From assembly GCA_949710005.1 (NCBI GenBank), contig OX453279.1, positions 26,476,762-26,540,761 of the forward strand: a DNA stretch of 64,000 nucleotides. The letters run 5' to 3'. Of this stretch, positions 7,495-52,600 are shown piece after piece; the first letter of the stretch is position 1, and each line of letters begins with the position of its first letter. Below the pieces are notes generated by a model. The model did no database searches and had not been told where the DNA came from. It was given only the letters and a program-made list of their open reading frames with translations. The DNA is from Ricordea florida. Its lineage: Eukaryota > Cnidaria > Anthozoa > Corallimorpharia > Ricordeidae. Both the position numbers and the translations under genes were made by a program.

Positions 7495-10400
7495 TATTAG
7501 TACTAGTGGTAGTAGTAGTAGTGGTAGTTTTGTTTATAGTTTTCAACTTGTATCACTGATATCAGGTTGGGGTCCTGTTTCATTTTTGTCAATATAAATA
7601 TTTCCTTAGATATTGATGAATGCACCGAGCCAGACAATGGCGGCTGCAGTCACAAGTGTATCAATACCGAAGGAAGTTACGAGTGTACTTGTCCAGACCC
7701 TGAATTGAGCTTATCGTTGGATAACAAAACATGTCATGGTACGGAGCGGTGCTATTCTGCACGTTGTTTGAATCTATGTTCAATGGTTTCCATCTTTATC
7801 ACTAATAAATCATTCACCGTCATTTCGCACAACCCCAAATGGTGCTCTTGCAAGAAAAAAGACGGTTTGTTCTTTAAACCTCATCAATAATTATCAGACC
7901 CTTACCTCATCTGTTTTTAAGATTACTTTACCCTGTCCTGTTTCGTATGTTAAAGTCTATAGTATACACCGTGGCTTTGGTCTTACTATAGAGCCATAAG
8001 TGAATGAAAACATGAAATATGGAGTAGAAGTATTTATTTCACAATATGGTTCTTACTTTTTAATCTGTGAATCAAACCATGCAGTGTGACCATTTTTTGG
8101 AAAGCTACTTACCAGTACTGTGTTGTGGTACAGTTCACTTTAGTTATATGTCGTTGTGTCACCTATATCTATTCTGTAGCACTAGTTCCCGGCACAAGTT
8201 GCTGGTGTCGTTCCCCTTAAAATTGAATTTCACTTCTCGACCGTGCCGGTAGTACAAAGGCACTTGCCTTAATATCTTTTCCTTATAGCGCCCGACGTAG
8301 AGGTGAAGTGTACACAGGAGAATATGACGATTTCTATTCCCAAGTCTATTCTGCGTGGTATCGATGGTTCTCAGCTTCATCTCTTGGACACGGCCTGCAA
8401 TGCTACAGAAACCAACGAAACTTTCTTCCTCGTAACACCACTTACCGAGTGTGGTACAACTAAAGAAGTTAAAAGCGGCTCTGGAACTGTTGTTTATTCT
8501 AACAAAGTCCTGTCTGCTCAAACAACGTCTCTTGTGACACGTGCACGAGCGATCGAGGTACCTTTTAGTTGCATATATTCCAGGTACGGCATAGTTTCGT
8601 CCCTCGGTTTGAAGACCCAGAACACAAAACTCGTGTTTGATAAAGAAGGCAAAGGAATCTTTACCATGTCTTTGAAAATATTCCCTGATTCTAATTTCGA
8701 GACGTCTTACACGAACGCGGACTATCCCATTAATGTGGTGGTACCTGAACCTATCTTTTTTGAAGCGTCGGTGACATCAATCGACACAGGGCTGTCAATC
8801 AGAGCTATGAAGTGTTACGCCACGCCCACCGAAAATCCTGAAGACTCTGTGCAGTACGATATTATCGATGATGGGTGAGTAAAAAGATATGAATAATAAA
8901 CTCAGAGACGATAAGAACAAGTGTAGCCGGGGCTGTGAAAGTGCTGCGGAAATTTGGATGTAGTTTGCAAATTGGAACAAGGATTTAACAACAACAACAA
9001 CAACAATTATCTATTTATTTGCCACATTGAACGAATTTTACAAAAAAAAAAATAAACAGAATAAGGTAACTATATCAGGCAAAAAACTACTTTGTATAGT
9101 ATAAACTAAACGAGTTTAGTAGTTTCAATAAGACATAAACTTGCAATTCTGAGTTGTAGCAAGCAAAGGAAAGAGAGCAAAAAATAAAAATAAAATAAAT
9201 ATAAAAAAAAGAAAAGGAAAAAAAAGGGAAAAAGAAAATTGGAGAGAAACGGTACCAAATAGTAGTATCGTATTTATCAAGTATTATTTTAATAGTAATG
9301 AGTTAAAAATAAATTGAGAATACGAAACCAGCATTAATCGTCAGAAGATGAAATTTGCTCTTCATTGCTTTCTTAAATAAATGCAGATAACTACTTTTCA
9401 ACAGAAGGATCAATGTAGTGTAAGTTAAATTTACCGTAATTAGTTCTAACATGATCAATATAAGACTTGTATTTTGATGCTACCCTAGTATTATGATTGT
9501 GCTTAGATCTAGTGATATACGTGAACAAATGTTGTCAAAAGCCTTAACATGAAACATGAAAATATTGTATGAATTGTTACAAGATACATCAGTTTAATTA
9601 ATCCTAGCTAACAAAGGGCTAGAGTGAGCATCTCGCTAAGAAAATGTTATTATTCGTAATGCCTTTTTTTGCAGAACCACAACAGATTTAAGAGTTGTAG
9701 CATAAGTGTTTCCCCAAGCAATCAAGCCATAAGTAAGGAAAGGATATACTAAGGAATAGTATAGCCGAGTGAGAATTTCATTAGTAACAAAATGTCTAAG
9801 CTTAGATAAAATGAGGGGCTCAATGGGGTTAACCGTTAGCCGTAAAACGGGCAAAAAAATTAGCCGTTAGGCGTAAATATTGAAACATTTTAGCCGTTAG
9901 CCGTAAAAAATATTAACCGTTAGCCGTAAAACAGCCAAAAATATTAACCGTTAGCCGTAAAACAGTCAAAAATATTAACCGTTAGCCGTAAAAGTCATCA
10001 CCCTATTGAGACCTTCTAGAATGCCAATGCCCCTTGAGATTTTCTTACCGACTTCATGTGTATGTTTTTTTTCCAATTTAAATTACAGTCAATAAGAAGA
10101 CCTAGGTATTTCACATATGTCATTCGCTCCACAAGTCTGCCTGAAATTTTTAAGTTAATTGGTTGAGGATTTCTCTGCGGAGGACAGAAATTTGTTTTTC
10201 GAATATTTAAAGATAGCCTGTTTAACTGGAGCCATCTAATAACTCGAGGGAATGTAAATTTTGATCTTGTAAAAAAATGTTGGTATCATCTGCAAAGAGA
10301 TGAAAATCAACTGCATAGGAACATTTATGAAGATCATTTACATACATCAAAAATAATAATGGCCCCAGTATGGATCCCGGCACCTTACATATAATCTGTT

Positions 10401-13279
10401 TTGAGTCTGAGTCTATAACTTGAGTATAAAGACCTCGTGCAGAAATGGTTCTCATTAATTTATTTTGTTGATTAAGTTTCTAAAAACGCTAACGCTGACA
10501 CTTGAGTCATGGAATAGCATGCTACTGTAAGAGGTTCCAGTTTCTTTTGTTAAAAGGCTGCAGGTTTCGGATTTATTCAAATTGAAGAGATTTGTATGTA
10601 TATGTATGTGAATATGTGACGCCACGTAACATTAGAGCTTTCAAAATGCTGGTTCAGTTTTCCGCGCTGACTAAAACACGAAATCATGTCCAGGTCACCA
10701 AGGTGTGAAAAATCCATGGCACATGGCAGCTGCTGCACAAGTGTAAAACAACAAACTGCACTGAAGCAAATTAACAAAAATATCGAACGTTGTGCTCTTC
10801 CACAGCGCAAAGCATTGTGGCCTGCTAAAAGCGAGGTTAAAAACCACGGCGGTGATTATGATTGCTGCTCCGCTGGCTGCGCTCTCTCCGTAGCAATAAT
10901 TAACATAGATATTTGATATTACAAAGAAAAAGTGCACATTGCAACCAGGTGGACAATCAGAAGTTTGATGCTACCGTCGGTTTAAAATAATGAACGTAAC
11001 TTTATAAGGGTCGGGGAATTGGACCATTTTAAGCTACATGCATCATTTCAAACCAGCGTAGCATCAAAATAAAATTGTTCTTACAATCTAATAGCCTATT
11101 ACAATTTTGACTCGTAATAGTAAAATGCGCATGCGCTGTAGGGTATAGAGTGTTGTTAAATCAAGAGATCCGGGATCGAACCCAGGCGATGGCAGTTGCA
11201 ATGTATTCACCTCCTTACGCCATCCTGACTAAAAAGTTTCTTTTTCCATCGCCTTATACTTTCTGTGAAAGTGGGTCGACAGTCAATTTGCCAAAATTGA
11301 CCGCAGTTGCATCAAGGAATAGCATGTTTAAAGTTTGAATCACCTTTGTGAATATGATGCTGATGACTTTGCATATCCAAAATGGATGAATATCGTCTAA
11401 AAATTAAAGTTTTCGATTCAGTATCCAGGTAAATAAATTTGGGTGTAGAAAAATTATATTTAAAATAAATTCTTTATTATATTTTTTATATATATTTCAA
11501 TTTTATTATTACCATCATTTCTTAAAGTTTGTTTGATGTCTTGCACTGATGGATGCCCCCCTTTGCAGGACTAAGACTTGTGTAGATGCAGATGCAAATA
11601 TTTTTCCTTTTTCTCCATTTTTCTTCACAAAACATTTTAGGGACGGACCATTAGAAAAGTGATGGGGGGGGGGGGGTGGGGAATTTTCGGCATGTGAAAA
11701 AGTCACAATTGGACCTTCCTTCTGCACGATTTTTTTTTTAACCTTCTTCCTTGCATGAATTTTTTTTTTTTGGCATTTTCCCTTGCATGAATTTTTTTTT
11801 GTTTTTTTCCCCACCCCCCCCCCCCCCCACCCCCATCACTTTTCTAATGGTCCGTCCCTTATACGCCTTGCTTTTCAGATGCTCCGTTGATCAGACAGTC
11901 ATTGACTACCCAGCACCTGCGGTCAGTGTTCAGAGGTTCAGCATAGGCTCCTTTCAGTTCCTTGGTGATCGTGAAGAACACTACGCATTCTTTCATTGTC
12001 AGTTAATGATTTGTAATGCCTCTGACCCAGACTCCCAGTGCGCTCAACCGTGCCTTCTTAATGTCCGAGGGAAACGTAACATAGAAGATTACCTGGACAC
12101 GACCTACACGTTAGTGCAGGGACCAGTCCAACTGGTTTTTGAAGAAGACGGAGAGCTAGAAGAAAAAGAGAAAGACGAAGAGGAAGATTCTAACAATAAA
12201 ACTGGCGCAAAAGGTGAGAAAAGACTTTGAAATCCTCTGGTCCACTTTCTGAATGTTTTTGAGTTCAAAATGTTTAGTACGAGATAAATTTTCTTTTTAA
12301 ATTAAACAATACCCTGTAATATTATGTCAGTAGATATGGGTATCATGCCCTATGCTGCGTTGTCAGCAATTGCATCCGCATTGGCGCATCAGTTAATTAG
12401 ATGCCGACAAAAAATGTTACCATAACATCAATTCAACCTCCTATATCACCCTACGTCTTAAATAAATACCTCTTATTAACCGAGTTCGAGGTCCGTACTG
12501 TAAGTTAAGGACCTAGTTTTTTTTCCGCGAAGCGCGCGGGCCATAAATCCGAGCGGCAAAAACGAGGATCCGTAACTTACTGTACGGACCGAATAAACGA
12601 GGTTCTCAGTGTAACATATTTATTATATCTCTGGAGTCATTTTGACGACGAAAAGAAATTTTAGCGGGCCGTACAGTGAACTACGGCCGGCTAAATTGAC
12701 CTATCACAGCTCGCGTACTAACTGAGAAACATGATAAGACTTATAACGTTGAAACAAATGTCCATCAACTAACCCTCCGAGAAGTTTGACAGTTTTGAAA
12801 ATTTAAGATGACCTTGGGATTTTTCATTAAAAGTTCTGCAACTTTTACCGAGGAGCAAGGTTCCTCTTGCATTTCTTAGGTATTTGTTTTCAGTGCTGTC
12901 ACTATGGTAACAACACCAAGAACTAACTTACTAAGAAACGATTTGTTAACTGAATCGGTTAATGCCTGCAAAACAAAAACCAGCATACCAGGCATCAACC
13001 GATTTTAACAATCGTAATCCAGAAATTCAGGGAAATGACTCGATTTTATTGTTTATAAAGGAAGGTGCAGTCTTGATCGTAGCCTTTGCAAATTTCCAAT
13101 TTTTACCTTTTTGCATAATAATCCTAAGTATAGTAATTTATAATATCCTTTTTATAGGCTTACATATTTTTAATGTCTGTAAATTGTATTTACTAATTTT
13201 ACTTTGATTTAGTTATTCTTTCTGTTCTGAAAACCACTTTTGTGAGAACGCACCCTGTTTAAAGATTGTTATTGTTATT

Positions 13280-18377: not shown

Positions 18378-18383
18378 TTTATT
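18378..18383 (-). promoter_or_regulatory. Candidate polyadenylation signal of the PH-RCC1-FYVE gene
   Basis: TTTATT on the plus strand reads AATAAA on the gene strand, 30 bases past the stop codon at 18414-18416. Confidence 0.5.
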
Positions 18384-18413: not shown

Positions 18414-18563
18414 TTAGGACGAAGCGTTTGTTTCTTCAAGAATAACGTGGTAGCATTTGTCACACACGCGCCGTGGAATCCGATAACCAGGAAGATTAAG
18501 AATTGGAGTTCTTTTAGAGGTGCAAGAAGCACAGTAAACTCCGCCACATTTCCTGCAGTGATG
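18414..18563 (-). CDS. PRAF-like exon 17 (FYVE end, stop)
   Basis: It encodes HHCRKCGGVYCASCTSKR ... RRVCDKCYHVILEE, completing the basic motif and four zinc pairs. TAA at 18416-18414. The ORF visible in another frame here is a shadow. Confidence 0.95.
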   Translation of the reverse strand, partial: HHCRKCGGVYCASCTSKRTPILNLPGYRIPRRVCDKCYHVILEETNASS

Positions 18564-21500
18564 CTGCGGATTGGTAAAAAAGAGTCAACTTTTAGCGTTC
18601 GCTTTAATTTAAACAAATGACCAGACTAAACTACGACAAGATGGTTTACGAGGGACACCTCTTATATGAGACGCCTTAATTACTGTCAACAGTAACCTAA
18701 TACAGTATTGTTCAATAGCTTCCCAAAGAATTGTCACACTGCATGGTTTGTTCCACAGATGAAATAGATATAACCACACTGTATAGTCAACAAAACAGTA
18801 CCACAGTACAGTACTGTTCAGTAGCTTTACAAAGAGTGGTCACAATGCATGGTTGATCCACAGATGAAAAAGTAAGAACCACACTGTATAGTAAAACAAA
18901 CAGTAGTACAGTACAAACTGTTCAGTAGCTTTCTACAGAATGGTCACACTGCATAGTTTGATCCACAAATGGAAATTTCGGTTATAGCAAAAGAACGTTA
19001 ACAGTACTGCTACAAATCTTACACGAACTGTTATCTAGTATAGCATATAAGACTTTCTTAAGCCATGCACAAAACAAACCTATTTATTTCTTAAAGTTGA
19101 CCTTAACAACTAAATCGCTTTTAAGATAATGCACACACATAATACACAACACAACAGTTTACCTTTCTGTTTACCAAGGAGAATTTGGTTTTGCATGCCA
19201 TGCAGTTCTTTATCAAGTCGTCTGACACCCAGGCCCTAGTAACTAGACAAGCTGTGTGTGTGGTAGCACATGCCACAGAACGCACACGTTTTCCATCCAT
19301 ATCCAGTTCACAAGGAAGCGGCCTGAAAAAAGTAAATGAATGCAGTTAAATGCAATTTAACTAATGTCCCACCCACACCAACTAAACATGTTTGGTTAAA
19401 CCAGGTTTTCAAACGTAAAAATTGGTAACAGAACACTGAAACACGGGCTTTCACAAAGGCTTCAAATAGACTGTAACATGTTCTTTCCATTTGTGGTAAA
19501 TGTGTAGTCGAAAACGACAGTAAGCAGCTTTTATAAAGGAAACAATTTTAAACCGTGTTTGAATTAACAGCATTTAAACATGTTTAAGCTCTGGTGTGAG
19601 CGGGGTATAAGTTAACATAGAAAGAGCGACCACTCTTTTCTGGAGTGTTGCGGTCAGTGGTCAGTGGTTCTGCCCACTCAACTTCTATTTAGCACAATTG
19701 ATCATTTTATCTTTCTCATTTGTTTTAGTTCACCTGTTTTTTCCATCACCATGCCCAAGTCGACCACCCTTTCCTTTGCCCCAAGTGAAAACTTCGCCTG
19801 CCTCTGTGAAACAAGAGAAGCAAAACAAACTACACTTTTTCAACTGACATGGTCGTGGGTACCAAGTATAAAAAACTGCTTTGAGAATATGCGAGGAAAC
19901 GCATTGCATGTGAGGCATCTATGACAAGGAAAACATATGGAAAATATCGTTTTCAAAAACTGCCGGAGTAAACAGTGCATAGCCTTCCTTCTTCGGTAAT
20001 ACAAATGGAATGAAGCATTAGATGAAACCCCACGCAAGGCGAACGCGAAACACAGAGGGAGGCGGTGGGGTTGAGGAAAGAGAATCCCACTCCCCGTCCC
20101 CCACCCCCTTGCTTTCTGATCTTTCATCCAGGTTTCTTTGCTCCGCGACTGAAGAAATAGACGAGTGAATAGAAGTCTATAGTCTATCAGGACCACAGAG
20201 GACTATTTCGTGGTGTATAAATTTGATTTCTGTATGCATCCTACATAAGGGTGAACTGAAAGGCGAGTTCAATGTAGGATCAATGTAAGTATTTTGGCAA
20301 CTGTGCACCAGCCCCTCCCTTAACCCATAAGTTAATAAGTTAAGTTAATAAGTTAAAACGTTAGCGTTAATGCTGGGTTAGGGGAGGGGTAGGTGCACAG
20401 TTGCCCAGATACTGACATTAATCCGAATGATGTGCTTTCATTAATGTTGCCCTTTGTCCTAATATTGCGGTTGCAAACCGAACTCTTTTACTTGTGTTCC
20501 ACGTCTCGGACAAACGCAGCACTGCCTTTAGGAACTAAGTCCTCCATGAGAGGGCCGTGAACCTATGTTGGTGGTCGACCCAGTAGGGGACCTAGAGTCC
20601 TAAGGGACGGACCATTAGAAAAGTGATGTGGGGGGGGGGGTGTGGGGAATTTTCAGCTTGCACGAATTTTTTTTTCGCTCACTGCTTGTGCAGGAATTTT
20701 TTTTCTTGGCATTTTCCCTTGCATGAATTTTTTTTTTTCCCACCCCCCTCCCCCCCCCATCACTTTTCTAATGGTCCGTCCCTAATGTTTACTTGCCTAG
20801 TGTAACGAACCTGTGTGTATATCTTGTTTATACTCAAATAATAAGTAACCAAATCAAGTAACCAAAAAACAGGATTCTAACCTGTTACGATAGCCGTATG
20901 AAATGCCCCGCAGGACACCTGAACCGGTTTAGAGTGTTTTGAGTGAGCAGGAAGGTGGATTCGAACTGGAGTATCAGCACGCTGGAGTTGCTCGACTGGT
21001 TTGCCTCGCTGATTTATTCCAAGTTGATTTTCGCTGTTGTCACCCATTCCAAACAGCCTCCCCTTTTCTAAAGTAATTAGAAAAAGAAAAACATAGTTAC
21101 GCAAAAGATTTATCGTTGTGTAGCATAAGGCAGATAATGTCGGGAGTTTTTCTAACCAGTTTTGTGTCGCGCATCAAACAGTATGCAAGTCAAGAGGACC
21201 ATACCGCATTTGGAAAGATTTCTGTGCCCCTTTGTTAAAAGAAGCGGAACTTGGTTATACCATTTTAGTATAAATACTCGAATGATTCTACAAAATTGCG
21301 CGCTCTGATTGGTTTGCTATCTCGGATTATCAGCCGATAATCACCTCAACGAACAAAAAGGCTGCCAGTCGTTCTCGCGCTTTTGATGAAATAAAATTTT
21401 TTCGTTTTGCACAGTGCTTTTTCTTTTCTTTTTTTGAAATAATCACCTGTGCATATATACTAAAACAATTATTCGCCGAAGGCGAAGTGATAATTGGTGA

Positions 21501-24500
21501 ATATTCACCGATAATCACTTCGCCTTCGGCGAATTATTGTTAAATAACGACCCGCAGCAACATTTAGTGATCTTGCTATTAATGACTTTCTAAATTGTCG
21601 ACACTTCCCTCTCTCTTTCCCTTTGAATGTCGTACGTTTAGGTTAGCAAGAATGATAATACGGTAGGGGGTGGGGTGGGGGGTTAAGGTGAGGAAGAGAA
21701 CTTTCATGTATGAGACCATGGGTAAATTACTGACACCCCCCCCCCCCCAAAAAAAAAAAAAAAGCCGCAGTATCTAGTAATTTTGCACCTTGTTACAACG
21801 GATCAATATCAGTGTCTGGGCAACCGTGCACCTACCCCTCCCCTAATCCAACAAGTTATAATGAGTTAAAAAGTTAGCGTTAATGTTGGTTTAGGGGAGG
21901 GGTAGGTGCACGGTTGCCCAGAAACTGATATTGATCCGTTGTAAGCTTTGTCTAGTGTTGCACTCTTTATCTTTGTGCAGCTCACAGCACCAGGATATTT
22001 TAAATCAATTAAGCGATGAAATTTGTGTTCTTAACTGGCTCAACTTTAGCCTTCGCAGTGGCTGGACGAGATGCACAAAAATGTGCATGTTACCTTTAGC
22101 ATCGTTACGGCAACACGAACAGTTTTACGGCGATGCTACCAAACAAGCTACAGTTGACCGGCTGAAAAAGTCGTAAACAAGTTTTTCAGACCGTGAAGTT
22201 AACAAACGTTTCATTCCACAATGCCATTGCAAGGAAAGTGAGCGCAAAGGTCTTAATGTCTGCACGTTTCACCTTCAGAGAGAAATGATATAAATGAAAT
22301 GATATAACGCATTCTACGGAAGTAGAATGATCTTACTTGTTAAAAATACACTGTGTTTGGCTCCACAACTAACATCGGTGATCATGGGATTCCTGTGAGA
22401 AGTGAAACGCGAAGTTATTGGACTTGTAGATAGAAATAGATAAATCAAATAACCTTTCTTTAAGCCCGGTGATAATACAACGCACGAGTGGCAGTTTGAC
22501 TGACCAAATAGAGAAAAAAAATGTTGCAAATAAAAGATAGCTTTCGTTATTAATAAGAGACACAACTGGTGGGAGACAAACCCGTTGGCTATTTATAAGT
22601 GTGGTTGAGAATTTGAAACTTGGGATGACCGTATTACAAATTCAGCTAGTGTTCAGGACGTGTATCGAACCTGGGACCGTGACCAGATTACAGTTGCAAG
22701 TCTGGCGCCCGAACCACTCGGTAAAGCTGCCTCCATTAAGTAAGCACAAGTCTTCACAGAGTCTTCGCACAGAGTCGGACACTATCTGAGTCGCTGAGTC
22801 TAATCTGTTTTTCTTTCTCCTGGGTTTTTTTTAGTTTTAGTTTCGTTTAGTCATGATCAAGGTTTCAGTGTTTATTTGCTCAATACTCTGGAGGTAAGTG
22901 AAGTGCATGTGTCACATTGTAAGTGTCTAATTTGCACAATGAAAATCAATTTACCACATACTTTTTGTAATCATTTAAGCTACTGGTGCGAAAAACGTAA
23001 TTGTAGTAAAGCGTTGTAGTAGCGCGAAAATCCAATTAAAGGAAGTGTTTGTTAAAAAAATAATAAATAAAAAATAGCAATAATAATGGATTATGCGTAG
23101 TTTCACAAACGAGCAGCAGTGCTTTATCAAGAATAAAACACGAGGTGTAGCCGAGTGTTTTATTCTTGATAAAGCACGAAAAGCGAATGTATTGAACGGC
23201 TTCAAAAACGTTTTATGTAGACCTATTCATTATTACCCTAAACTTTGGATTTTGATGTATTTTGACCAAGATAATTGAACGCAAATGTTAACAGTGTCTA
23301 TATCAGATATAAAGACACTCATAAAACATTAACTTCCTTTGTATTTTCTTTATGCATTGTAAATGAGTTTTTGAATGTCTAGTTAACAAATATATTTATC
23401 GTACCAATTGTAAAGAAATGGGAAAAACCCTCTTACTTAAGTTCTGCAGATGATACCAAGGACACTGGTTTTGTAGCAAAAGGTGAATGACCAGTTCCCA
23501 ATTGACCGTAATCGTTTGAGCCCCAAAGCCAGAGATCGCCAGTTACTAGGCGTGAAAAAGAAAGAAAGATTCGTGCCACAATAAACATCAAGGTATAAAG
23601 CCTGTTAATAATACCCAGACACATCTATTCGATGAAATCAATGACAACAATTAAATAAATCAGCAATCAATGGGTAATTGATGGTTCATAAGTTGACCAG
23701 TCATTGAGTAATTGATGAATAATCAAAGTATTGGTCATCGAGTACTCATCAATCACCCATTGATTATCGCTAACAATCAATGACTAATCAGTTCATTACT
23801 CATTGATTACTCATTGACTACTCATCGATTATTGCTCATTGATGTCATTCATCATCGATTTATGGGGGCTGGTAAAACTCTTTACTTAACAATTAGAACT
23901 GTTTTGGGCTGAAATAAAACAAAGAAAAGATTTAGCCCAGGAAAGGTAACTGTTTGTTTGAGATATTGGCGGTTTATCATTTACAAAAAGTTCCCAGAAA
24001 CTCCGGTTGGAAAGTAAATGGAACACAAGATTCCTGGACGTTCAGGTGGAACGTTCCGAACGGAATTTCGTGTTCCATTTCCTTTAAAGTCATCTATCAT
24101 CCCTTTTGGTGTCGGTTCTAGAGTCTCCGTGCAAACAAGAGTGGGTTTTGCAAATGACAAACAACAATACCGAACAGAATTTTTCCCAATTTTGAGTTTT
24201 GCTTCAGTTTACCATTTGTCAAAACCGTACACTGACCGGTTTTTCAAGTAAATGGTAAACAACCATTGATTTCCGGAGTTTATAACCATTTGATTAAAGT
24301 GGTCGGCACGCATGCGTTTTCCCGGGCTCAGTCATAGTGTGACAGTATGTATTATTGAAAGTTCTGATTGTTTCACTGGGTCGTGTGCGTCTGCTATGAT
24401 TGGCCAGATTAATTACTTTGGTTTTGGTATTAGGACTTCGTTTTCCCGCCCATGGTGTGACAATATGTATTTTTTAGAGTTCTGATTGGTTCACTGGGCC

Positions 24501-27500
24501 ATGCGCGTCTGCTACAATTGGCCAGAGTAATTACTTTGGTTTTGTTATTAGGATTATGCGTCATTCGAAAACCACCTTAGTGTGATACGTACATGATAAT
24601 GCAGCGCTGTGGTTTTTTCCGCAAGTTACAAAGGCGACTGGGTAGCCTTGAAGTGTTTCTATACAGACTGGCTCGTAACTCATTGCTGGTCCTTCAACTC
24701 CCAACTGACCAAGCGTATTGTCACCAAAAGCAAAACAATTGCCTCCTTTTGTGGAAGCCGCAACAACTGCAAGAGAAATTGAATTATTCATTGGCACGCC
24801 ACAGAAAATTAAGCAAATATAAAAATAGGCAAGCATTGCATTCATGTGGCTACTGCACTTATTAAGTTTATTCGGACCTTTTTGCCATACCTACCGCCTT
24901 TCCTCGATTTCAATATTTTTACATAATTTAATCTCTTCTTAGTTTAAACACAATTACAACTCTTTGCGGTGCGCGAATTGTACAGTACATTGTGATTGGC
25001 TAAATACTAGGCACGTGCTGAATGGCCCCTTCACTCCCTCACTCACTCATGTTTCCCTCGACATATTGGCCACTGCATTATTTCATATGCAGTAGCCAAG
25101 AAAACCATACAAATTTCTTCCTTTAGGGGTGAGGTGGGTGCGTGGGTTTGTGAACTCTTTCTTATTCTTTTCTACTATTCAGTTATTCAGTTATTTAAAT
25201 TGATTTAATTTATTATTAATTAATATTTTTTGTTTTCTTTTTTACTTGCTTTACATACTGACTATAATTGGATGGGGAGCTAACAAGAAAACCTAACAGT
25301 TTATTTGGCTTCCCAGCTCACATACTATTATTCTTTTATATTTTAAAGTCAAGATAAACACTAATTTCATTTATGTTAAGTAAAAATGTAATATGACCAT
25401 GAGCTGAATAAAGAATTATTCAATTATTAAGCAATTGGGTCTCAGTAAATAATGAGTTAGGCAACGGTCCTTGTTGAAGAGGCTAGTAAACTAAATACTA
25501 GCATACGTATTCAGATTTCAAGAAGTTGCAAAGTACATTTTACACTAATTCACTCATTTACAAAAATCCTACCGATGTACTTTTCTCGAAGCAATACCTA
25601 GCTTTCACTGAATAATTAACTTGTAAAGTACCAACCCAATTTTCTAGCTACTGTTCAATTTTATTCTGCAATTCGATCTGCGAACAAAGGGTGCTTTCCA
25701 TTTACTCTAAGTGAGCTGACTGAATCTACTCCAGTCAACTGAAAAGCGCCGATTCCGTGCGGGGCCGCACTAATTGAGGCGAAAAATGTTCAGAGCATTA
25801 ACGCACAATCATGGCAAAAGAACCGGGGGGGACCTAATATTCAAGCAGAGCCCGTTAATTAAACGAGAGTCAGTTCTCAGAACAAATCAGTCCAGGCGCT
25901 CATATCAGAAAAAATCCATGCTCCCTTAAGTTTATTTCTTCAGAATACGTTACATGTTTCTTACCTATCGTATGGGCAGCTCCACAAGCAACATGGCTGA
26001 TCTTATGCCCCGAGAGGCCTTTCACAAGTCTTGGCAACACTTCCTTGCGGGATAAACCTTCATATCCAAGATGCGGTCCGCCTTCGCCCCAAGTGTATAA
26101 CTCTCCGGATGCTTGAAGGCAAAATATACAAGCGATATATTGAAAATCAATTATGACCTTTTTTCTACTCAACTTCCAGGCATAAATTCATAATTGGTCT
26201 AAAGAAAGCCGCAACGAAAAGAATGGAGGAAAATATTGTTTTCAACTTCCAACGGAAAAATCCACACAAAAAAATTCGACCACAGAAATATTTACGATCA
26301 AGTCTTCGAACCTTAGCCGTGTTACAGACCAGTTCAGGGCCGTTGTCAGTAAGAGGGAAACCGAAGCACATTTAATTTTTAGTTAAATAATGCGCGATCT
26401 CAGTTCCAACGCAGTCATCATAAACACCCCGAATACTCTGTAGCGAAATTTAACCATAGACATTGCCTCAGTCATAATCTCTTCTGGCCATGGCCCTCCG
26501 GTAGAATAATTTAAATCTTCCAAGCTCGCCCATCCTCCCCACTTCTCCCCTCCACTTTCGTCGCTTAATTTTTTTTTTTTGCTCAGTCATGCGAGATTAC
26601 TGTACAAGCGCGGACAATATCCTATAGAATGCCTTGGTTTATACCAGACGTAACAACTAGAACTCAATTCTTGACAGGCTGGCACTTAGGTCAAGACGAC
26701 TTACCACACACCGCAGCAGAATGGAACTCATGACAAGCAACTTTGACAACTTTCTTGTCTTTCAATTCGGCAATTCTGATCGGTGTTGCTCTGTCTCTTA
26801 AATGTCCCTGACCAAGCTTGCCACCATAACCAGAACCCCAAGAAAACACTTCACCTTCCTCTAAACACAGAGAGGTTAAAGAACATTCAGAAACAAATTC
26901 TAAACAATCAGTACTGAAACCATATTTAGCATTCAGAGGTAAAGCTGCTACAGTAATTACACCACGTGACCCAAATCCACCTGTTTCAAAATGGCCGATA
27001 AAAAAAATCGGTAGAAAATGAAGTTTCGCAGCAATGAAGTTGATTCCCTCGAAAATTGACCATTTCCACCTTAAGTTAAATGTACTGCAGATAAAAAAAC
27101 ATCTCGAGTTTTTAGGGTGCCTGGTTGGCCGTCATGTTTTTTCTGGCACAATAAATCTTGAAACTTTTAACTAGAGTTTAAGTTTTCATTGACTACTCAC
27201 TGGTTACAACCATTGTATGGGTGACTCCACAAGCTACTTTATGAATATCTTTAGCCAACAAAGCCTCCACGACTCTTGGAATGTTCTCTTCTCCATTTTC
27301 GCCATGTCCAAGCATTCCTGTTGAACCTTCACCCCAAGTGTACAAGTCACAAGCATCTGCAGGGAAGTAGCAAATACAAATGGGCATTATAACCTCACCT
27401 CTAATGCCATGGTAGAAAGCTATTCACTAGTTTATGCCACCTATAAATGCCTCTGGACTTTTTGATAATTCAACCTTTTTCAAATATCTCAACTTTCCAG

Positions 27501-30500
27501 GTTTTTCACAAATGCTATTTATTTGGGATACTAAAAATGGGGGGGAGGGGGGGGGGTCTGTCACAGGAGTTTTAATGAGATCAGTCACAGTTGTGTTTCA
27601 AAATGATGGTTACATAACTGACTTCATCTAGAAACCAAGAAGAACGTAAAATACCAAAGAAAGCTTATGAATTGTCATGTGCTCTTTTGCTCCAAGGTAC
27701 CAAAGGCAGAGGGTAAAAGCAGTTGTGCAACAAGAAAGAACTTCCTTGACTTGAAATATATCATAACATTTGAAAACACCGTTTACATTTACCTTCATCA
27801 TAATGCTTCCCACCAGGACCAAGAACTTCTAGAGGAATCTAGAAAAACAAAAGTAAAAGTTGCTGCCAAAAAATGTGTTCCTTAAAAATTATTATAGATC
27901 TATTTAATGCATGCCATTTTGACTTCTTCTACCAAAACAAATAAATACAATAATTCATTAACAAAGCAGAATTTTCTCTGGACATCAACTGCATTATGTA
28001 CCATGTCATAGGCGTTAATAAAGATAATGAGGACATCAATTCAGATAAATTACATAAATAATTTTTTCACATGCAAAATTATTACATATGATTAATATGA
28101 TATATTACGTACAATTAGATAATTATGATCTTAATACATAGTTTTCCACAAAAAAATATTTTTTTAGAGTTTAGTTTAGCTTCTAAAGACAATTACTAAA
28201 AGCCAAATAAATTAGCCTTTTAAACAACATTTAAACCAGAAACCAAAAAACAACTCCATGTCTAAAATCAGCCATGCTTTAAGCAAATACTGTATGGCCA
28301 CTCACCTCCTCATAATCTGTCTCATCCTGTCCTCCCTTTTCATATAACTCATCAATTGCTTTCTTATTACAAAACCCACTCATCAAGGCCTACAAACAAG
28401 ACCATGACATATGACGTAATTTTAGAACACTAATCACTGGCATTAATTATTAGTTGTTGTTGATGCTGCTGATGACCTTGCCGGTATTTTCACAATCATA
28501 TAAAACGGAAATAAATGATATAAGGATTTATAAAATAACTCAGATACTAATAAGCCCGCTGACTGGTCGAAAAGCTATGGGTTATTGTGCCTGTAAACCC
28601 ATAGAAAGGAGAAACATTTTCTGTTTTCATTAAAAGTTAGTTTATAAAAGCAATGATAATTATAAACCACAGTTTCTATGGGTTTACTGGCGTAATAAAC
28701 CACTTGGGCAGTGCTATAAGACCTGGCTCCCACCAGGGCTCTGGCAGGTGCTCTCCTCCAAATTGCTGGTTATATTTCTTGCATTAATGTGCTCATGAAC
28801 AAAAGGAACTTTAGTCAACTCTGCAGGGTGCTAACATCAAGTAGCCACCTGCTTCAAATCTTATTGAAAGCACTCCTTGGGGTGTGGGGAGAACACTCGA
28901 TTGGCTGGTAAATCATGAGCGACAGGCAAGTGATTTACAAGCTCTTCTCGCGTAAACCGATAGAAACTGGGCTTTATTGCTTAATTATCAATTTGTGAAC
29001 AGCTGGATACTGCAGAAAGAACTCCAATGTCAGGAATGTTCACTCGGTGAATAGTAACTTTTTAGGGTGCACTCATTTTTTCAAACCAGCGTAGCATCAA
29101 ACTATGTCTGACTCTATTAAACTAAATTGGAAAAGCAGAGTGTGGAATTAGAGAGGGTGTTCAGGTATCTATTGACACTTGACCTTAGGCAAAATCAACA
29201 ACTTAAACAAACAAACCTGCAGGCCCATTGTCCATACATCAAACTGCTGTTTATCTAAACACACAATGTCCACTGTATGTGCAGCTCGGCCAACTTTATA
29301 AACAACAGAGAAAGAAATTGACTGCAAAGGAAAAATAACATTTTTTTGAATTTGCAAATGTTGTTTGACAGGTGTTGTGACTGAATGATTACCTGTAGCT
29401 CATATCTTTCATATTAAGTATTTGATTACTAAAAAATTAATTACCTAAAGAAAAATTCTCTCAAAAATGTTTGGATTTATTAAAAAAGCTCTTCTAATAG
29501 TTTGCTGCTAACAGTACCTGACCTTTTCAAGTGTGGTGGAGATGTAAGCTACTCCATCAGAGCACCATTTTACTGAAATTTAACTACTTTGAACTTATTT
29601 ATAAAATTTAATGGACTTACTGGACTCTAATTGACCCCAGGTTGAATACAACTAGCAATATTACCATAGTTCAAGCGCTTGGCTGAGGAAGCTGATCATT
29701 CTATAAGATTACTGTCTTTCCTTAAGGCTTTCTCATGACTTTTTCACCTATTATTCAATGTTAATACAGTAAAATAACTGAACTGAACAGAATGCATGCC
29801 ACAGTGTGTGTCAGCTACATACATGTTTGTCATATGGTATAAATTACATTTAAGAACATAGAGTCAGCAACCCTTCATCTTGTTAGTGATGGTATTTTAC
29901 TTGCCAGGCAAGCAAAGTGTGACCTATTGATTCTCTTGTACACAGAAAGCTGGTGATTCTTCAGGCGTATGAATCTAGAATGTGAAATTCTTGAAAATGA
30001 AACACATGCCACTCGATTAGTTGTGAGTAAGATGGGTTATAATCAAACTTCTTCAACTTCAAGACCTTGTTTTGTTTTTAACAATAATGCCACACAAAGA
30101 AAACCTGTCATAGTGACCAGAAAAGAAAAATCTCTTCCTGCCTGACGCTTCAGAGTTGACACTAATGTGCACCAGCGTTGAGGCATACCTGGGTAGGAGC
30201 TGATGCATATACATATGCATGTGTATTGTGTCTGCATTGTTTGCTTAGTATTGGTCTGCACTGTACAATACTGTACCTATCAATTTGATAGAGATCTAAG
30301 CTTTGATAAAAGATATTTTATTGATACTATAAACTATACGTCACCTCACTCTGTGGTACAGGAAAGTTCTGGAATACTTTGGTCTTCTGTCCTTTGATTA
30401 GGTCAATCATGTTTGAAACTAAAACTACAACATAAAAATAGAAACATATCTAATCCAATAGACCATTTACTCCAAATGCACCATAACATCTGCATGCAAG

Positions 30501-31552
30501 CCTTAAATTCTACACTAAGTTTTTCACCTCAGCTCAAATGGACTGAGCATTTAATGAATATAATGAACATCTCAAATATCAATGTTACTTCTCTTTATTT
30601 TTAACTGATTATTCAGTTCTGATGTAGAGTTATCAGTTCTGTTTCATTGAGTCCTACCAGTTTTATCTCCCGCTTTTCTAGGTGATCCCCACTGTAAGCT
30701 TGAAAGATCTGCAGGTTAAAAAAACAGGCAAGCATTGCATGCATGTGGCTACTGCATTTATTAAGTTTATTCGAACCTTTTTGCCATACCTATCGCCTTT
30801 CCCTGATTTCATTAGTTTTACACATTCTCTTTTGAGTTTAAAAATAAATCGATATAAAAGCAAATTGCATTGTGCATTGTGATTGGCTAAATACTAGGCA
30901 CACGCTGATTGGCTCCTTCACTCACTCAATCACTCGTGTTTCCTTTGACATATTGGTTCCTGCATTATTTCATAATTATGTAGTAGCCAAAAAAATCAAC
31001 ATGAAATTTTAATGTAAAGCTTGAATATCATTGCATTTAACTTTGCAAACACAAAATCTATTTTTTTTTACCTCTGGATAAAACAAATCTCTTTAACTGT
31101 GGAGTTCCCTACAGTAGAGAAAAAGAAAATTAAGTTAAATTGTTTGTTAATATAATATACTAAAATACTTTGTATTAAATATGACAGGTCATACTGGACA
31201 TCATTATCGTCAAGTCCTCTATTATAATAAAATATTGATGCTCGTGTAAATGAATACCCTGGCCAAAATATGTTTTACTAATATATTTATAAAAGCACTG
31301 AATGTATCTGGTTACGTTTCGGAATGTGGAAGTTGTCGTCAAACAAATTGTATGTGTTGCCACCTAAAAGTAATTAGTTTGTGGTCATATTTCATCAAAA
31401 GTACAGGGATATCGACAAATAAAAAGAGGAGAAAGACTTACGTTCCGTTTAGCTTTAAGCATAATAGAACTTTTGGTCATCTTAAAAACCGAGAAATAAG
31501 AAGATTCAGGAAACGAGGAGTGATTGCCAACAGCTCGTTCAGTTGTAGCCAT
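18414..31552 (-). CDS. PH-RCC1-FYVE protein, PRAF-like, complete
   Basis: Seventeen minus-strand exons join without a frame break into 623 codons plus TAA. In transcript order: 31552-31442, 31108-31072, 30708-30658, 30418-30345, 29321-29217, 28389-28306, 27838-27793, 27356-27201, 26860-26705, 26111-25965, 24766-24593, 23545-23437, 22392-22337, 21067-20882, 19803-19734, 19322-19163, 18563-18414. Residues about 24-130 form a PH domain, 170-550 seven RCC1 repeats (a full propeller), and 552-617 a FYVE finger with WVSD (552-555), RKHHCRKCG (573-581) and RVC. This is the order of the plant PRAF family, minus its BRX tail. Expected role: PI3P-membrane binding; an exchange-factor activity of the propeller is only inference. 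The ATG is the first in the open first exon. Confidence 0.92.
18721..18983. repeat. Tandem repeat, about 110-base unit
   Basis: Two to three imperfect units share GTCACACTGCATGGTTTG, CCACAGATGAAA, AACCACACTGTATAGT and CTGTTCAGTAGCTTT. They lie in the last intron of the PRAF-like gene. A single inverted copy is at about 8040-8150. Confidence 0.7.
19163..19322 (-). CDS. PRAF-like exon 16 (RCC1 repeat 7 end, FYVE start)
   Basis: It encodes VRSVACATTHTACLV, closing the propeller, then WVSDDLIKNCMACKTKF, the WxxD and first zinc pair of the FYVE finger. It ends VNRK before a GTAAAC donor. Confidence 0.92.
19734..19803 (-). CDS. PRAF-like exon 15 (RCC1 repeat 7, first half)
   Basis: It encodes EAGEVFTWGKGKGGRLGHGD. 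Acceptor TTTCACAG, donor GTGAAC. Confidence 0.92.
20277..20433. mobile_element. Foldback MITE with CCCCTCCC arms, copy 1
   Basis: Arms GGATCAATGTAAGTATTTTG ... CACCAGCCCCTCCC and the inverted GGGGAGGGGTAGGTGCACAG ... TAATCC flank a TTAATAAGTTAA-rich loop. Same family as 21800-21941. Confidence 0.65.
20604..20782. mobile_element. Harbinger-like MITE, copy 3 (TSD TAA)
   Basis: Same GGGACGGACCATTAGAAAAG ends, with TAA duplicated at 20601-20603 and 20783-20785. It ends 99 bases from PRAF-like exon 14. Confidence 0.85.
20882..21067 (-). CDS. PRAF-like exon 14 (RCC1 repeat 6)
   Basis: It encodes KGRLFGMGDNSENQLGINQR, a longer insert containing LPAHSKHSKP, then VQVSCGAFHTAIVT. Donor GTTAGA. Confidence 0.93.
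21284..21545. mobile_element. MITE with GATAATCACTTCGCCTTCGG arm, copy 1
   Basis: It shares GCGCTCTGATTGG, CAGCCGATAAT, TTTGAAATAATCACC and a 3' foldback (GCCGAAGGCGAAGTGAT and complement) with 45090-45355. Confidence 0.6.
21800..21941. mobile_element. Foldback MITE with CCCCTCCC arms, copy 2
   Basis: Nearly perfect arms: GGATCAATATCAGTGTCTGG, GCAACCGTGCACCTACCCCT, and their complements around a GAGTTAAAAAGTTAGCG centre. Confidence 0.7.
22337..22392 (-). CDS. PRAF-like exon 13 (RCC1 repeat 5, second half)
   Basis: A 56-base exon encoding NPMITDVSCGAKHSVFLT, completing blade 5. Acceptor CACAG, donor GTAAGA. Confidence 0.9.
22651..22735 (-). repeat. tRNA-Leu/Ser-like sequence, probably SINE head
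   Basis: On the minus strand, GGCAGCTTTACCGAGTGGTT is an A-box-like start; then GGCGCCAGACTTGCAAC, a longer variable part, and a B-box AGGTTCGATAC. The acceptor stem does not pair, so a functional tRNA is unlikely. Confidence 0.5.
23113..23182. repeat. Short foldback
   Basis: GTGCTTTATCAAGAATAAAA and its complement flank a CACGAGGTGTAGCCGAGTG centre. Confidence 0.6.
23437..23545 (-). CDS. PRAF-like exon 12 (RCC1 repeat 5, first half)
   Basis: It encodes TGDLWLWGSNDYGQLGTGHS and continues to SSAELK; the second half of the blade is in the next exon. Donor GTAAGA. Confidence 0.93.
23640..23860. repeat. Degenerate tandem repeat (CATTGATTACTCATTGA words)
   Basis: Repeated imperfect copies of TCATTGAGTAATTGATG and similar words occur on both strands in the intron before PRAF-like exon 12. 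Confidence 0.65.
24338..24555. repeat. Direct duplication, about 119-base unit, two copies
   Basis: Both units contain TGTGACARTATGTATT, AGTTCTGATTG, GCGTCTGCTA and ATTACTTTGGTTTTG. It ends 38 bases from PRAF-like exon 11. Confidence 0.7.
24593..24766 (-). CDS. PRAF-like exon 11 (RCC1 repeat 4)
   Basis: It encodes GGNCFAFGDNTLGQLGVEG ... VAFVTCGKNHSAAL. Donor GTACGT. Confidence 0.95.
24829..25098. mobile_element. MITE with TGGCTACTGCA ends, copy 1
   Basis: Ends TGGCTACTGCA and TGCAGTAGCCA are inverted. The body shares CCTTTTTGCCATACCTA, TGTGATTGGCTAAATACTAG and CTCACTCAC words with 30727-30989. Confidence 0.65.
25099..25964. other. Intron sequence, nothing recognised
   Basis: Intron between PRAF-like exons 10 and 11; no further structure seen. 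Confidence 0.4.
25965..26111 (-). CDS. PRAF-like exon 10 (RCC1 repeat 3)
   Basis: It encodes GELYTWGEGGPHLGYEG ... ISHVACGAAHTI. Donor GTAAGA. Confidence 0.95.
26705..26860 (-). CDS. PRAF-like exon 9 (RCC1 repeat 2)
   Basis: It encodes GEVFSWGSGYGGKLGQG ... VVKVACHEFHSAAVC. Donor GTAAGT. Confidence 0.95.
27201..27356 (-). CDS. PRAF-like exon 8 (RCC1 repeat 1)
   Basis: It encodes DLYTWGEGSTGMLGHG ... HKVACGVTHTMVVT, one complete RCC1 repeat with the TWG and CG-x-x-H-T signatures. Donor GTGAGT. Confidence 0.95.
27793..27838 (-). CDS. PRAF-like exon 7 (linker)
   Basis: A 46-base exon encoding IPLEVLGPGGKHYDE before the first RCC1 repeat. Donor GTAAAT. Confidence 0.82.
28306..28389 (-). CDS. 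PRAF-like exon 6 (linker)
   Basis: A 28-codon exon, phase 0 at both ends: ALMSGFCNKKAIDELYEKGG and an acidic end, the linker after PH. Donor GTGAGT. Confidence 0.85.
28390..29216. other. Intron sequence with dispersed inverted words
   Basis: Several copies of ACCCATAGAAA / TTTCTATGGGTTTAC lie in both orientations between 28575 and 28970, suggesting MITE relics. No gene seen. Confidence 0.35.
29217..29321 (-). CDS. PRAF-like exon 5 (end of PH)
   Basis: It encodes SISFSVVYKVGRAAHTVDIV followed by CLDKQQFDVWTMGLQ, the final strands and C-terminal helix with the invariant PH Trp. Confidence 0.9.
29322..30344. other. Intron sequence, nothing recognised
   Basis: Intron between PRAF-like exons 4 and 5; only short chance ORFs. 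Confidence 0.4.
30345..30418 (-). CDS. PRAF-like exon 4 (PH)
   Basis: It encodes SNMIDLIKGQKTKVFQNF, matching the I-x-x-G-x-x-T-x-V-F motif of PLC/PRAF-type PH domains. Donor GTGACG. Confidence 0.88.
30658..30708 (-). CDS. PRAF-like exon 3 (PH)
   Basis: A 51-base exon encoding DLSSLQWGSPRKAGDKT, including the Trp common in this PH subfamily. Acceptor CTGCAG, donor GTAGGA. A MITE copy lies 37 bases upstream in the gene. Confidence 0.85.
30727..30989. mobile_element. MITE with TGGCTACTGCA ends, copy 2
   Basis: Second copy of the element at 24829, in the same orientation, in the intron between PRAF-like exons 2 and 3. The left flank AGGCAAGCATTGCAT is also shared, so the true element starts about 20 bases outside the inverted TGGCTAC. 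Confidence 0.65.
31072..31108 (-). CDS. PRAF-like exon 2 (PH)
   Basis: A 37-base exon encoding GTPQLKRFVLSR, the second PH strand. Acceptor CTGTAG, donor GTAAAA. Confidence 0.85.
31442..31552 (-). CDS. PRAF-like exon 1 (start, PH begins)
   Basis: ATG at 31552-31550 starts MATTERAVGNHSSF. The exon ends with SSIMLKAKRN, the first PH strand, at a GTAAGT donor, phase 0. Confidence 0.85.
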
Positions 31553-31829
31553 TATTAAAATGTCGATGAATTCTCACTCGATTATCTCCAATCAGACATT
31601 CAGCACAATTTACATCAACCTGGAGACTTAAAGCAACCGATCCAAGCACGGTGGAAACTCGTTGCAAGAGATTTTTACTCTTTTGAGAGAAGTATAAAGT
31701 ACTCTTCTGCCTTCCGGTTGACATAGAAGAGTCACGTGGTGCAAAAGACGAAAATATGGAACCCAGGCCCATATTCTTCCACTCTTCCGAGTTCTCAGAT
31801 CCGAGTTCTCACTTTTTCCATCTGAAGCA

Positions 31830-49600: not shown

Positions 49601-52600
49601 CTTCAGCACATCTTTAATCCGACGGTGGGGAAACTGACTTTGTCAACTCGTTTGATAAATAAAAATAGTAGACGCTTGCGAGCAGTTAACCCTGTAGTTG
49701 TACCTTTGGCATTCGCTCTCAGAAGGGGCGAAACTACAGAGTGTCTGCACAAGACGTCACGGCAGCCATGTTGGTGTACCAAACTTGTCTGGTGTGCCAT
49801 GAAAATGTGCCAAGACGTCACGGCTGCCATGTCTGGTGTGCCATGTTGGTATACCCCAGGAATTAAATTCTATTCTTATGTAAACACAATCTTTTGTTAC
49901 CGTTAAAAACATGGTTGCTGGTCGCGTGAGTGAATAGGCTCTATAACTGTGGTCAGAAACCAGGGGCACCCAACGAGAATATAGTTCAAAACCACTTAAA
50001 TATAGCATTGTTAAAGTGTTTTAGTATTAAAAGGGTAGATATAAGCATATTTTTATCCCCTAAAATTTTTTAATCTGTTCGGATTTCCTAGCTGAAAGTC
50101 TTGTGATCCGAAAATTATAGCGATCAAAACTTACCTTTTCGAAAATTTCAGTCAGAAAATAGGCTCCCGAAAATTCTAGGTGACCTTTTTACGTTAGAAA
50201 TCCGTTAAAAATGGGCAATAATACCATTTTTTAGATGTTTGAAAATCCTAGGAGAGGTAAACAAACAGTTTTTTTTTAACAAAGGTTCCGAAAATTCTTG
50301 ATCTCAATCGTCTTCCGAACAGATATTTTCCGAAAATTGACGTTGGGTGCCCCTGAGAAACCCACAAGACTTGAAACGTGTAACACGCATTCACAATTTG
50401 TCCAGATTCAGTATTTCTTAAGTACCATATTTGGAAACTGCCTGCCCCAGTCTTTGAGCTTGTTGGCAGTGTCCTGCCTCTTTGGCGCGTCGTAAACATG
50501 CATTTGCAGCAACGATGTGACCGCCATGTTTTGAGCAGAGGTGGGTATTTCCCGGTAAATACGTCATGCTACCAAAGCCAGTTTGATTGGTTAATTTGGT
50601 TTTCTCAATTTTCGGTAATACATTCATGTCCTATATACACCAAACATTTAAAGCATTTTAACTCTTCTGCTTTTCAAGATATCTTGCTGAAAAAATTCAT
50701 GTAAACAAAGCATCAAGTAAGAAACAACGTGTAGAAGTATAAGATTTTTTTGCTGGAAACGTTTTCGTGTAATTATCAATTGAAATATCAAACAGGTTTT
50801 GAAGAACGGCTCCAAAATATAGGACATGAATGTATTACCCGATTTTTTCCAAATATGTTACTTTGTAGATTGAATGAGAGCAAGCTGTGGGTAAAGACAT
50901 TCAAAGGCAGTTACTCGTTTCAAGTCTTCTGGGTTTCTCGTGTTGTTTGATAGCCACAATCTTTTCTATTGTGTTGAGTTAGTGATAATTCTCAGTTCAG
51001 GGATCTTCTCTTCCTTACCAACCATTGTATCAACCTATAGATACACGTGCGTAGAGCTAAATCGGTTTATTGGTACTGGAAGGCTCTTATTACTTTGTTG
51101 TAGAATGACAGACCAGATCCTCTTGTTGGCTTAGCGTCAGAGCTCTCTTGCCTGAAGGCGATTTTCCTCGAGGAGAGTCCCCAAGGGCAAGCCGATGGCA
51201 CTGAAGTCTTCGATAACGTGAGCATCCATGATTCTTCAGTGGAGCCGCCTTCGATTACAGAAATCACTTTAGAAATATCACACCTTCATCAAAGAATCCT
51301 GCAGTGGAAAGCTGACATAGAATCTCAACTTGCCAGAGTTTCTAACGATGCGAGAAGAGCGCACGACGAGAGGAAATTTTCTGTTCAAGAGTACGAGCTT
51401 AAGTTCAAACAATTGAATGAAAAATACTCCAACTTGACAAAAGCGGCTTCCGAAGAATCAAATACGAAAGTCCAAGAGCTTTTGGCGCGTCTGAAAACCG
51501 CTGAATTGGCGCTCAGTGATCGGGAGGCTCAGATAGAACAACTAAGGAACGAGGTACAGACGGCTGTTTTGTCCTCTCACGAAACTCAGAGGTTGTCTAT
51601 TCAACTCGAGAGCCAGGTGGCCGCGTCTACGAGAAAGCAAAACGAGTTGTCGTCCGAATGCGAGCAATTAAAAGAAAGACTTAAATTTAAGGACCAAACT
51701 GCAGAAGAGTTGGGATCAAACATTGCTGAATTAAAGGAGAAAATTAGTGAGCTACAAACATCGGAAACAGAAGCTAATAAGAGAGTTGCTAAGCTCGAAG
51801 GAGAGTTGCATGCTAAGGACGTTGCCCTGGAGAGGGTACAAGAGTCTTTTGAAAAAGTGAATGGAATGGTGTTTGGTTCATTCGAAGAGCTAGAGTTGGA
51901 ATTAAAGACGCGGTTGATGGATAGGGAAAAAGGAATGGAAAGCCAGAGTGAAGAAAATAGAAAACTGGCAAGAAATTTGTCTGAGATTGAACAACGGAAT
52001 CAGGAGCTGACAAATAAACTCTCTGACTCAAATATCAAAGTAGGCAAGTTGGAAAATGTGAACAATGAATTAGAAAATACGATACAGGACTTACGATCTC
52101 AGGTTAATTTGCTAGACCAAGAATATAACACGTTTGTATCGGACTTGAAGAAGACTTTAGGACGTCATGAAAGTTCTGATGAACTGGACGGCCGCCAAAT
52201 GGGAAAGAAATACAATGGAAGTGTTTTAAAGGTGAATAAGAGAGAAAGGTTCTTCTTGTGTTCTTCTTAGACTCACCGTTGACGTTTCTTCATTTTTATC
52301 TTTTGTGTCCAATTAGACGGCCAATTAATTAAGCAATTAATCATGACTATAACAAAATTCTAAAATCTGATTGGCTATCAACTGCCCTGATTTTGCCTTA
52401 ATAGTACAGTTAAATAGGACAGTACCCGTCATGCCTGTGATTATTTTGACGCCATAACACGAGCATAAGGAAAAGAAAAATGTTTGTTTTTCTTGTGTTA
52501 ATGCTTGCGCTTACGCTTGTGCCTATCTCACAAGTGTGAACCAGACTTAACATTTTTCTCGCCTCTACGGTATTAATTTTCGTGTAAAGCTCTCTAAAAA

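Follow-up and report, generated by a model that had tools for sequence, protein, structure and literature searches.

A spliced PH-RCC1-FYVE gene in the genome of the corallimorpharian Ricordea florida

The closest described counterparts of the gene reported here are the plant PRAF/RLD proteins, in which a PH domain is followed by RCC1 repeats and a FYVE finger; our subject is a predicted gene of the same domain order in an animal, the corallimorpharian Ricordea florida. It lies on the minus strand, at 31552..18414, of a 64,000-nucleotide stretch of assembly GCA_949710005.1 (contig OX453279.1, forward-strand positions 26,476,762 to 26,540,761), which we call the window; unless a contig is named, coordinates count from its first letter. 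Many of the plant proteins also carry a domain that goes by two names, DZC and BRX. In Arabidopsis, the nine class V proteins have a phospholipase C (PLC)-type PH domain, RCC1 and FYVE, with DZC in seven of them (Wywial and Singh 2010, PMC3017826), while a later paper gives eight of the nine members as having BRX (Furutani et al. 2020, PMC6941992). The RCC1-like domain (RLD) of PRAF1 is reported to be a guanine nucleotide exchange factor (GEF) for Rab8a (Jensen et al. 2001, cited in PMC6941992). A 2022 paper, which calls the family plant-specific, places PRAF proteins on endosomes and finds that the Arf-GEF GNOM is bound by the FYVE-coiled-coil part of PRAF4, not by its PH-RCC1 part (PMC8748900). 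In plant FYVE-RCC1-DZC proteins the FYVE site reads K-R/K-H-N-C-Y, and a plant FYVE of the RCC1-FYVE kind is reported to bind phosphatidylinositol 3,4,5-trisphosphate [PtdIns(3,4,5)P3] better in vitro; in the same paper, chlorophytes are reported to lack the RCC1-FYVE architecture, and a single case of RCC1 with FYVE is given outside green plants, in the sea anemone Nematostella vectensis (Banerjee et al. 2010, PMC2837644). None of the 18 human RCC1 proteins has the PH-RCC1-FYVE architecture, and human PAM is said to combine RCC1 repeats with FYVE in another order (PMC3017826), a statement that conflicts with the single non-plant case of Banerjee et al.

The gene that we rebuilt from the window sequence has 17 predicted coding exons. 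They are listed below in order of transcription, with a possible polyadenylation signal and with the support for each feature in brackets:

31442..31552, minus: exon 1, with the start codon, the N-terminus and the first part of the PH region (in-frame stop upstream of the start codon; A at -3 and G at +4; donor gtaagt)
31072..31108, minus: exon 2, PH (GT-AG, phase kept)
30658..30708, minus: exon 3, PH (GT-AG, phase kept)
30345..30424, minus: exon 4, PH (GT-AG, phase kept)
29217..29321, minus: exon 5, C-terminal part of PH (PH_12 at residues 46-131)
28306..28389, minus: exon 6, end of the PH match, linker (GT-AG, phase kept)
27793..27838, minus: exon 7, linker (GT-AG, phase kept)
27201..27356, minus: exon 8, RCC1 repeat 1, phase 1-1 (Pfam RCC1/WD40_RLD, intron phases)
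26705..26860, minus: exon 9, RCC1 repeat 2, phase 1-1 (Pfam, intron phases)
25965..26111, minus: exon 10, RCC1 repeat 3, phase 1-1 (Pfam, intron phases)
24593..24766, minus: exon 11, RCC1 repeat 4, phase 1-1 (Pfam, intron phases)
23437..23545, minus: exon 12, first part of RCC1 repeat 5 (Pfam, intron phases)
22337..22392, minus: exon 13, second part of RCC1 repeat 5 (Pfam, intron phases)
20882..21067, minus: exon 14, RCC1 repeat 6, phase 1-1 (Pfam, intron phases)
19734..19803, minus: exon 15, first part of RCC1 repeat 7 (Pfam, intron phases)
19163..19322, minus: exon 16, end of RCC1 repeat 7 and first half of FYVE, with WVSD and zinc cysteines 1-2 (Pfam, phases)
18414..18563, minus: exon 17, second half of FYVE (HHCRKCG ... 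RRVC) and stop codon (Pfam FYVE; FYVE match of the genome search at C8:26495202-26495348)
18378..18383, minus: possible polyadenylation signal AATAAA (31 nt past the stop codon; weak)

Once joined, the exons form one open frame of 1878 nt including the stop codon, with a product of 625 aa, two residues longer than the 623 of the initial annotation, whose 17 exons do splice in phase. All 16 introns are GT-AG; they measure 233-1269 bases each and 11,261 bases in total, and G+C is 0.449 in exons versus 0.369 in introns. As a control we drew 20,000 random chains of AG..GT segments that repeat the 17 exon lengths, on the same strand, from 36.1-64 kb of the window; none was open, and the fewest stops in any chain was 13. 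Because the exons had been chosen by eye for an open frame, a choice for which this control makes no correction, we take the Pfam scores given below as the stronger proof of the gene. The AATAAA past the stop codon supports the gene end weakly, since the hexamer also occurs 15 times within introns (spread over 8 of the 16, including introns 2-5 and 7). At the least, RCC1 and FYVE belong to a single gene, because both lie on exon 16. As a prediction from genomic sequence, the observation of one spliced PH-RCC1-FYVE gene in an animal genome is thus confirmed.

Scanned against Pfam, the full protein matches RCC1 in seven stretches (291.3 bits), WD40_RLD at residues 175-548 (286 bits) and FYVE at residues 554-617 (76.7 bits), so that FYVE stands directly behind the RLD with five residues between the two matches. 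When the N-terminal 172 aa are scanned alone, PH_12 is matched at residues 46-131 with 28.3 bits, above the cut-off of 27. The motifs WxxD and RVC are signatures of canonical FYVE fingers that bind phosphatidylinositol 3-phosphate (PtdIns3P). The window protein has WVSD, RKHHCRKCG, RRVC and eight cysteines, with RKHHCR spanning exons 16 and 17; it carries a canonical predicted PtdIns3P site, the reference form being R-R-H-H-C-R (PMC2837644). The seven RCC1 repeats and the canonical FYVE finger of the initial annotation therefore both stand. Among solved structures, the propeller matches HERC2 best (261.9 bits), followed by HERC1 (255.8) and UVR8 (207.5; 4d9s). Alsin_RLD is matched weakly in the full protein (54.3 bits versus a cut-off of 100), and no HECT match was found by Pfam in the 625 aa. 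Eight residues follow the FYVE match, and Pfam found no BRX in the protein, nor in the 10 that were scanned of the 31 downstream minus-strand frames of at least 38 aa.

With the plant PRAF/RLD proteins of Arabidopsis class V, the window protein shares the plan of a PH domain, a set of six or seven RCC1 repeats and a FYVE, in that order (PMC3017826, PMC6941992). In Arabidopsis PRAF1, the segment linking the final RCC1 repeat to FYVE may be about as long as here, and its FYVE may likewise start with WVS. It differs from them at its C-terminus, ending eight residues past FYVE where the plant proteins have BRX (in seven or eight of nine) and a coiled coil (PMC8748900), and in its FYVE site, the canonical RKHHCR as opposed to the plant K-R/K-H-N-C-Y (PMC2837644). 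The absence of BRX that the initial annotation singled out is accordingly what we find, but it is not unusual, given that only seven (PMC3017826) or eight (PMC6941992) of the nine Arabidopsis members have the domain. We have not filed the protein as PRAF/RLD because it lacks BRX; by its predicted domains it is a member of a wider PH-RCC1-FYVE kind, defined by that order with or without BRX. The N. vectensis protein, which we compare by description only, likewise comes from an animal and combines RCC1 with FYVE (PMC2837644), whereas human PAM, which also has RCC1 repeats and FYVE, has three repeats, another order and other domains (PMC3017826). The RCC1-like domains of HERC1 and HERC2 are the propeller's best solved-structure matches, as noted above. 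HERC proteins are giant ubiquitin ligases with a HECT domain, which we did not find by Pfam in the window protein. Alsin (ALS2) differs in carrying DH, PH, MORN and VPS9, differently ordered, and no known FYVE. It resembles the window protein as an RLD protein that sits on endosomes and works through Rab5 (PMC3017826, from the text and a cited title).

The RCC1 repeats of the gene (18414-27356) all start at a phase-1 intron, and exons and propeller blades correspond almost one to one: a single exon encodes each of repeats 1-4 and 6, and repeats 5 and 7 are each split once. Elsewhere in the genome, the RCC1 match at C1:38676651 (query 4-157) stays in one open frame, without an intron, across two boundaries between repeats; the exon plan of at least some other RCC1 genes in this genome differs from that of the window gene. 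The FYVE region is interrupted immediately ahead of HHC by an intron of phase 0. A genome search for FYVE gave at least 22 matches in 21 loci (L001-L008, L029-L041), of which 14, the window included, show the HHC motif; the same phase-0 intron is found in 5 of these 14 (the window, L007, L008, L029 and L034), a count that leaves out the seven loci without the motif (L032, L035, L036, L037, L039, L040 and L041). Its presence in four other loci suggests that this is an old FYVE intron.

The window sits inside a 32.7-Mb contig (C8) of the 538-Mb genome. Searching that genome with the RLD-FYVE part of the protein gave at least 60 matches, those outside the window at 31-54% identity (35-50% for FYVE matches elsewhere), and, with match counts being lower bounds, no second site with adjoining RCC1 and FYVE matches was found. 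Three intronic repeats (20600-20790, 21265-21547 and 18702-18970) match other copies in the window at 79-100% identity, at 3.9-4.2, 8.0-8.1, 11.6-11.9, 45.1-45.4 and 53.7-54.0 kb, and one repeat pair is placed in introns 2 and 10 of the gene. The gene is native to the animal genome, since its introns hold repeats seen elsewhere in the window and no second RCC1-FYVE site was found; the view of the initial annotation that it is no contamination is upheld by these repeats and by the zona pellucida (ZP) and EGF frames nearby. A hairpin with arms that are 97% complementary lies at 21793-21944.

We favour, with modest confidence, the explanation that this is a native PH-RCC1-FYVE endosomal regulator or scaffold of common descent with plant PRAF/RLD. 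The same domain order, possibly the same type of PH domain, and a close RLD-FYVE junction argue for a shared ancestor over chance, and common ancestry most likely accounts for the likeness in domain order and type. From the predicted domains we infer a soluble protein with membrane binding at both ends and a protein-binding propeller between them. The FYVE finger, which by its signature is likely to bind lipid, would dock on early endosomes through PtdIns3P; a second phosphoinositide contact would come from the PH domain, and the two would anchor the RCC1-like propeller to endosomal or recycling membranes. There the propeller would act on or scaffold a small-GTPase step, the predicted GEF or scaffold role being one that its relatives point to; our best guess is the Rab8/Arf class, suggested by plant PRAF1 and by HERC1, which is reported to act on ARF1 and on members of the Rab family (Rosa et al. 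1996, title cited in PMC3017826). The window protein probably works like PRAF/RLD; without BRX, the LAZY/BASL-type recruitment known from plants should not be used. After a common PH-RCC1-FYVE ancestor, plants would have acquired a BRX tail and altered the lipid site of FYVE. A broader version, which we hold no more readily than its opposite, is that eukaryotes had PH-RCC1-FYVE as an endosomal regulator already before the plant-animal split, that some animals keep it with its original PtdIns3P-binding FYVE and that humans lost it, the plant BRX and altered FYVE marking a later turn to a polarity factor.

Several points weigh against the favoured explanation. The case for homology to PRAF is one of domain order and type rather than of alignment. 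PH_12 is marginal, scoring 24.8 bits in the full protein, below its cut-off of 27, so that the PH domain of the initial annotation is supported by the separate scan of the N-terminus but narrowly; even more marginal is the possible PLC type of this domain, the solved-structure matches of the N-terminus at the laxest threshold being the PH domain of PLC-delta1 (E 0.13) and Inscuteable (E 1.1), both weak. Many RCC1-like propellers are not known to be GEFs and are often plain binding platforms. A GNOM contact is not to be expected, because the part of PRAF4 that GNOM bound comprises FYVE and coiled coil, and only eight residues follow the FYVE match here. The phase-0 intron before HHC, finally, is common to ordinary FYVE genes of this genome, as is also predicted by convergence, in which an animal RCC1-like propeller gene would have gained PH and FYVE by exon shuffling and would resemble PRAF only in its list of domains. 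The sharing of that intron by five of 14 loci, the ranking of HERC2 and HERC1 as best RLD matches, and the lack of the architecture among the 18 human RCC1 proteins (PMC3017826) all fit this account. We nevertheless regard convergence as an unlikely if serious contender: it would have to arrive at an identical set and order of three domains, with a PH that is possibly PLC-like as in plants and a five-residue gap between RLD and FYVE; the genome offers no close source for the FYVE, other matches being at 35-50% identity; and the shared intron may simply be old.

The remaining alternatives are less probable. Two or three adjoining genes, such as PH alone followed by RCC1-FYVE, could have been joined on paper, as the short and weakly scored PH exons 1-6, a model read from genomic DNA alone, and the AATAAA hexamers in half of the introns would allow; we find this improbable, given that frame and GT-AG are kept at all joins and that exon 16 is common to RCC1 and FYVE. 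Transfer from a plant, a green alga or an algal symbiont, which the description of the family as plant-specific (PMC8748900) would invite, is more improbable still: the gene has 16 GT-AG introns, intronic repeats common to its neighbourhood and a site inside a 32.7-Mb contig, its FYVE site is canonical, unlike the plant variant, and chlorophytes are reported without RCC1-FYVE (PMC2837644). Among the origins offered in the initial annotation, retained ancestry thus fits best, and a recent plant or algal transfer is unlikely, since both the animal-type surroundings of the gene and the canonical site in its FYVE speak against it. Searches that detect close relatives only, and hence say little, gave one pattern-matching stretch among viral contigs for the last 123 residues and 13 among prokaryote genomes for residues 172-625 (RLD-FYVE), none of them confirmed. 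The position of UVR8 among the best solved-structure matches (207.5 bits) raises the thought of a UV-B receptor, to which we give almost no credence. UVR8 photoreceptors hold a tryptophan cluster in GWRHT motifs, and UVR8 is not known to have either PH or FYVE, both of which are predicted here. HERC2 and HERC1 outscore it, and its CGWRHT motifs align with CGAAHT, CHEFHS and CGAFHT in the window protein. A UVR8-like function was rejected, GWRHT occurring nowhere in the protein.

The initial annotation had presented the gene as a novelty in animals, which does not survive the 2010 publication of an RCC1-FYVE protein in N. vectensis (PMC2837644); the gene is less new than was held, having been foreshadowed in print. 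Our literature searches likewise turned up no account of a function in cnidarians: one that combined FYVE, RCC1 and cnidarian found nothing, and neither the phrase ‘RCC1 and FYVE’ nor, in a second broad search, FYVE appeared among the matches listed. The available portions of papers on dictyostelids, myosin and Oxytricha (PMC8923023, PMC2375034 and PMC9958989) name no RCC1-FYVE protein, those of an oomycete FYVE paper (PMC8233823) do not mention RCC1, and in those of a Nematostella apical-organ paper the sole mention of RCC1 concerns NEK9. A complete native animal gene with the three-domain core backs the 2010 report and extends PH-RCC1-FYVE beyond plants. It provides an outgroup, with which one can ask how this core functions when BRX, LAZY and BASL are missing, and whether PtdIns3P is the ligand of its FYVE, as compared with the plant FYVE that is reported to prefer PtdIns(3,4,5)P3 in vitro (PMC2837644). 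If the ancient-regulator reading is true, the PRAF/RLD core is not plant-specific.

Around the gene, Pfam was run on 10 of the 22 neighbouring frames. EGF and ZP frames at 7540-12230 (plus strand) perhaps form one gene, and long frames at 51104-55731 (plus strand) gave weak matches only, mostly to coiled-coil families. A retrotransposon of the long interspersed nuclear element (LINE) type occupies 31722-36035 (plus strand) with two open frames, one of 459 aa with a GDSL-esterase match and one of 977 aa with endonuclease and reverse transcriptase. It stands head to head with the PH-RCC1-FYVE gene, the first of its two frames beginning 170 bases upstream of the start codon of that gene, and it may bear on the gene's promoter.

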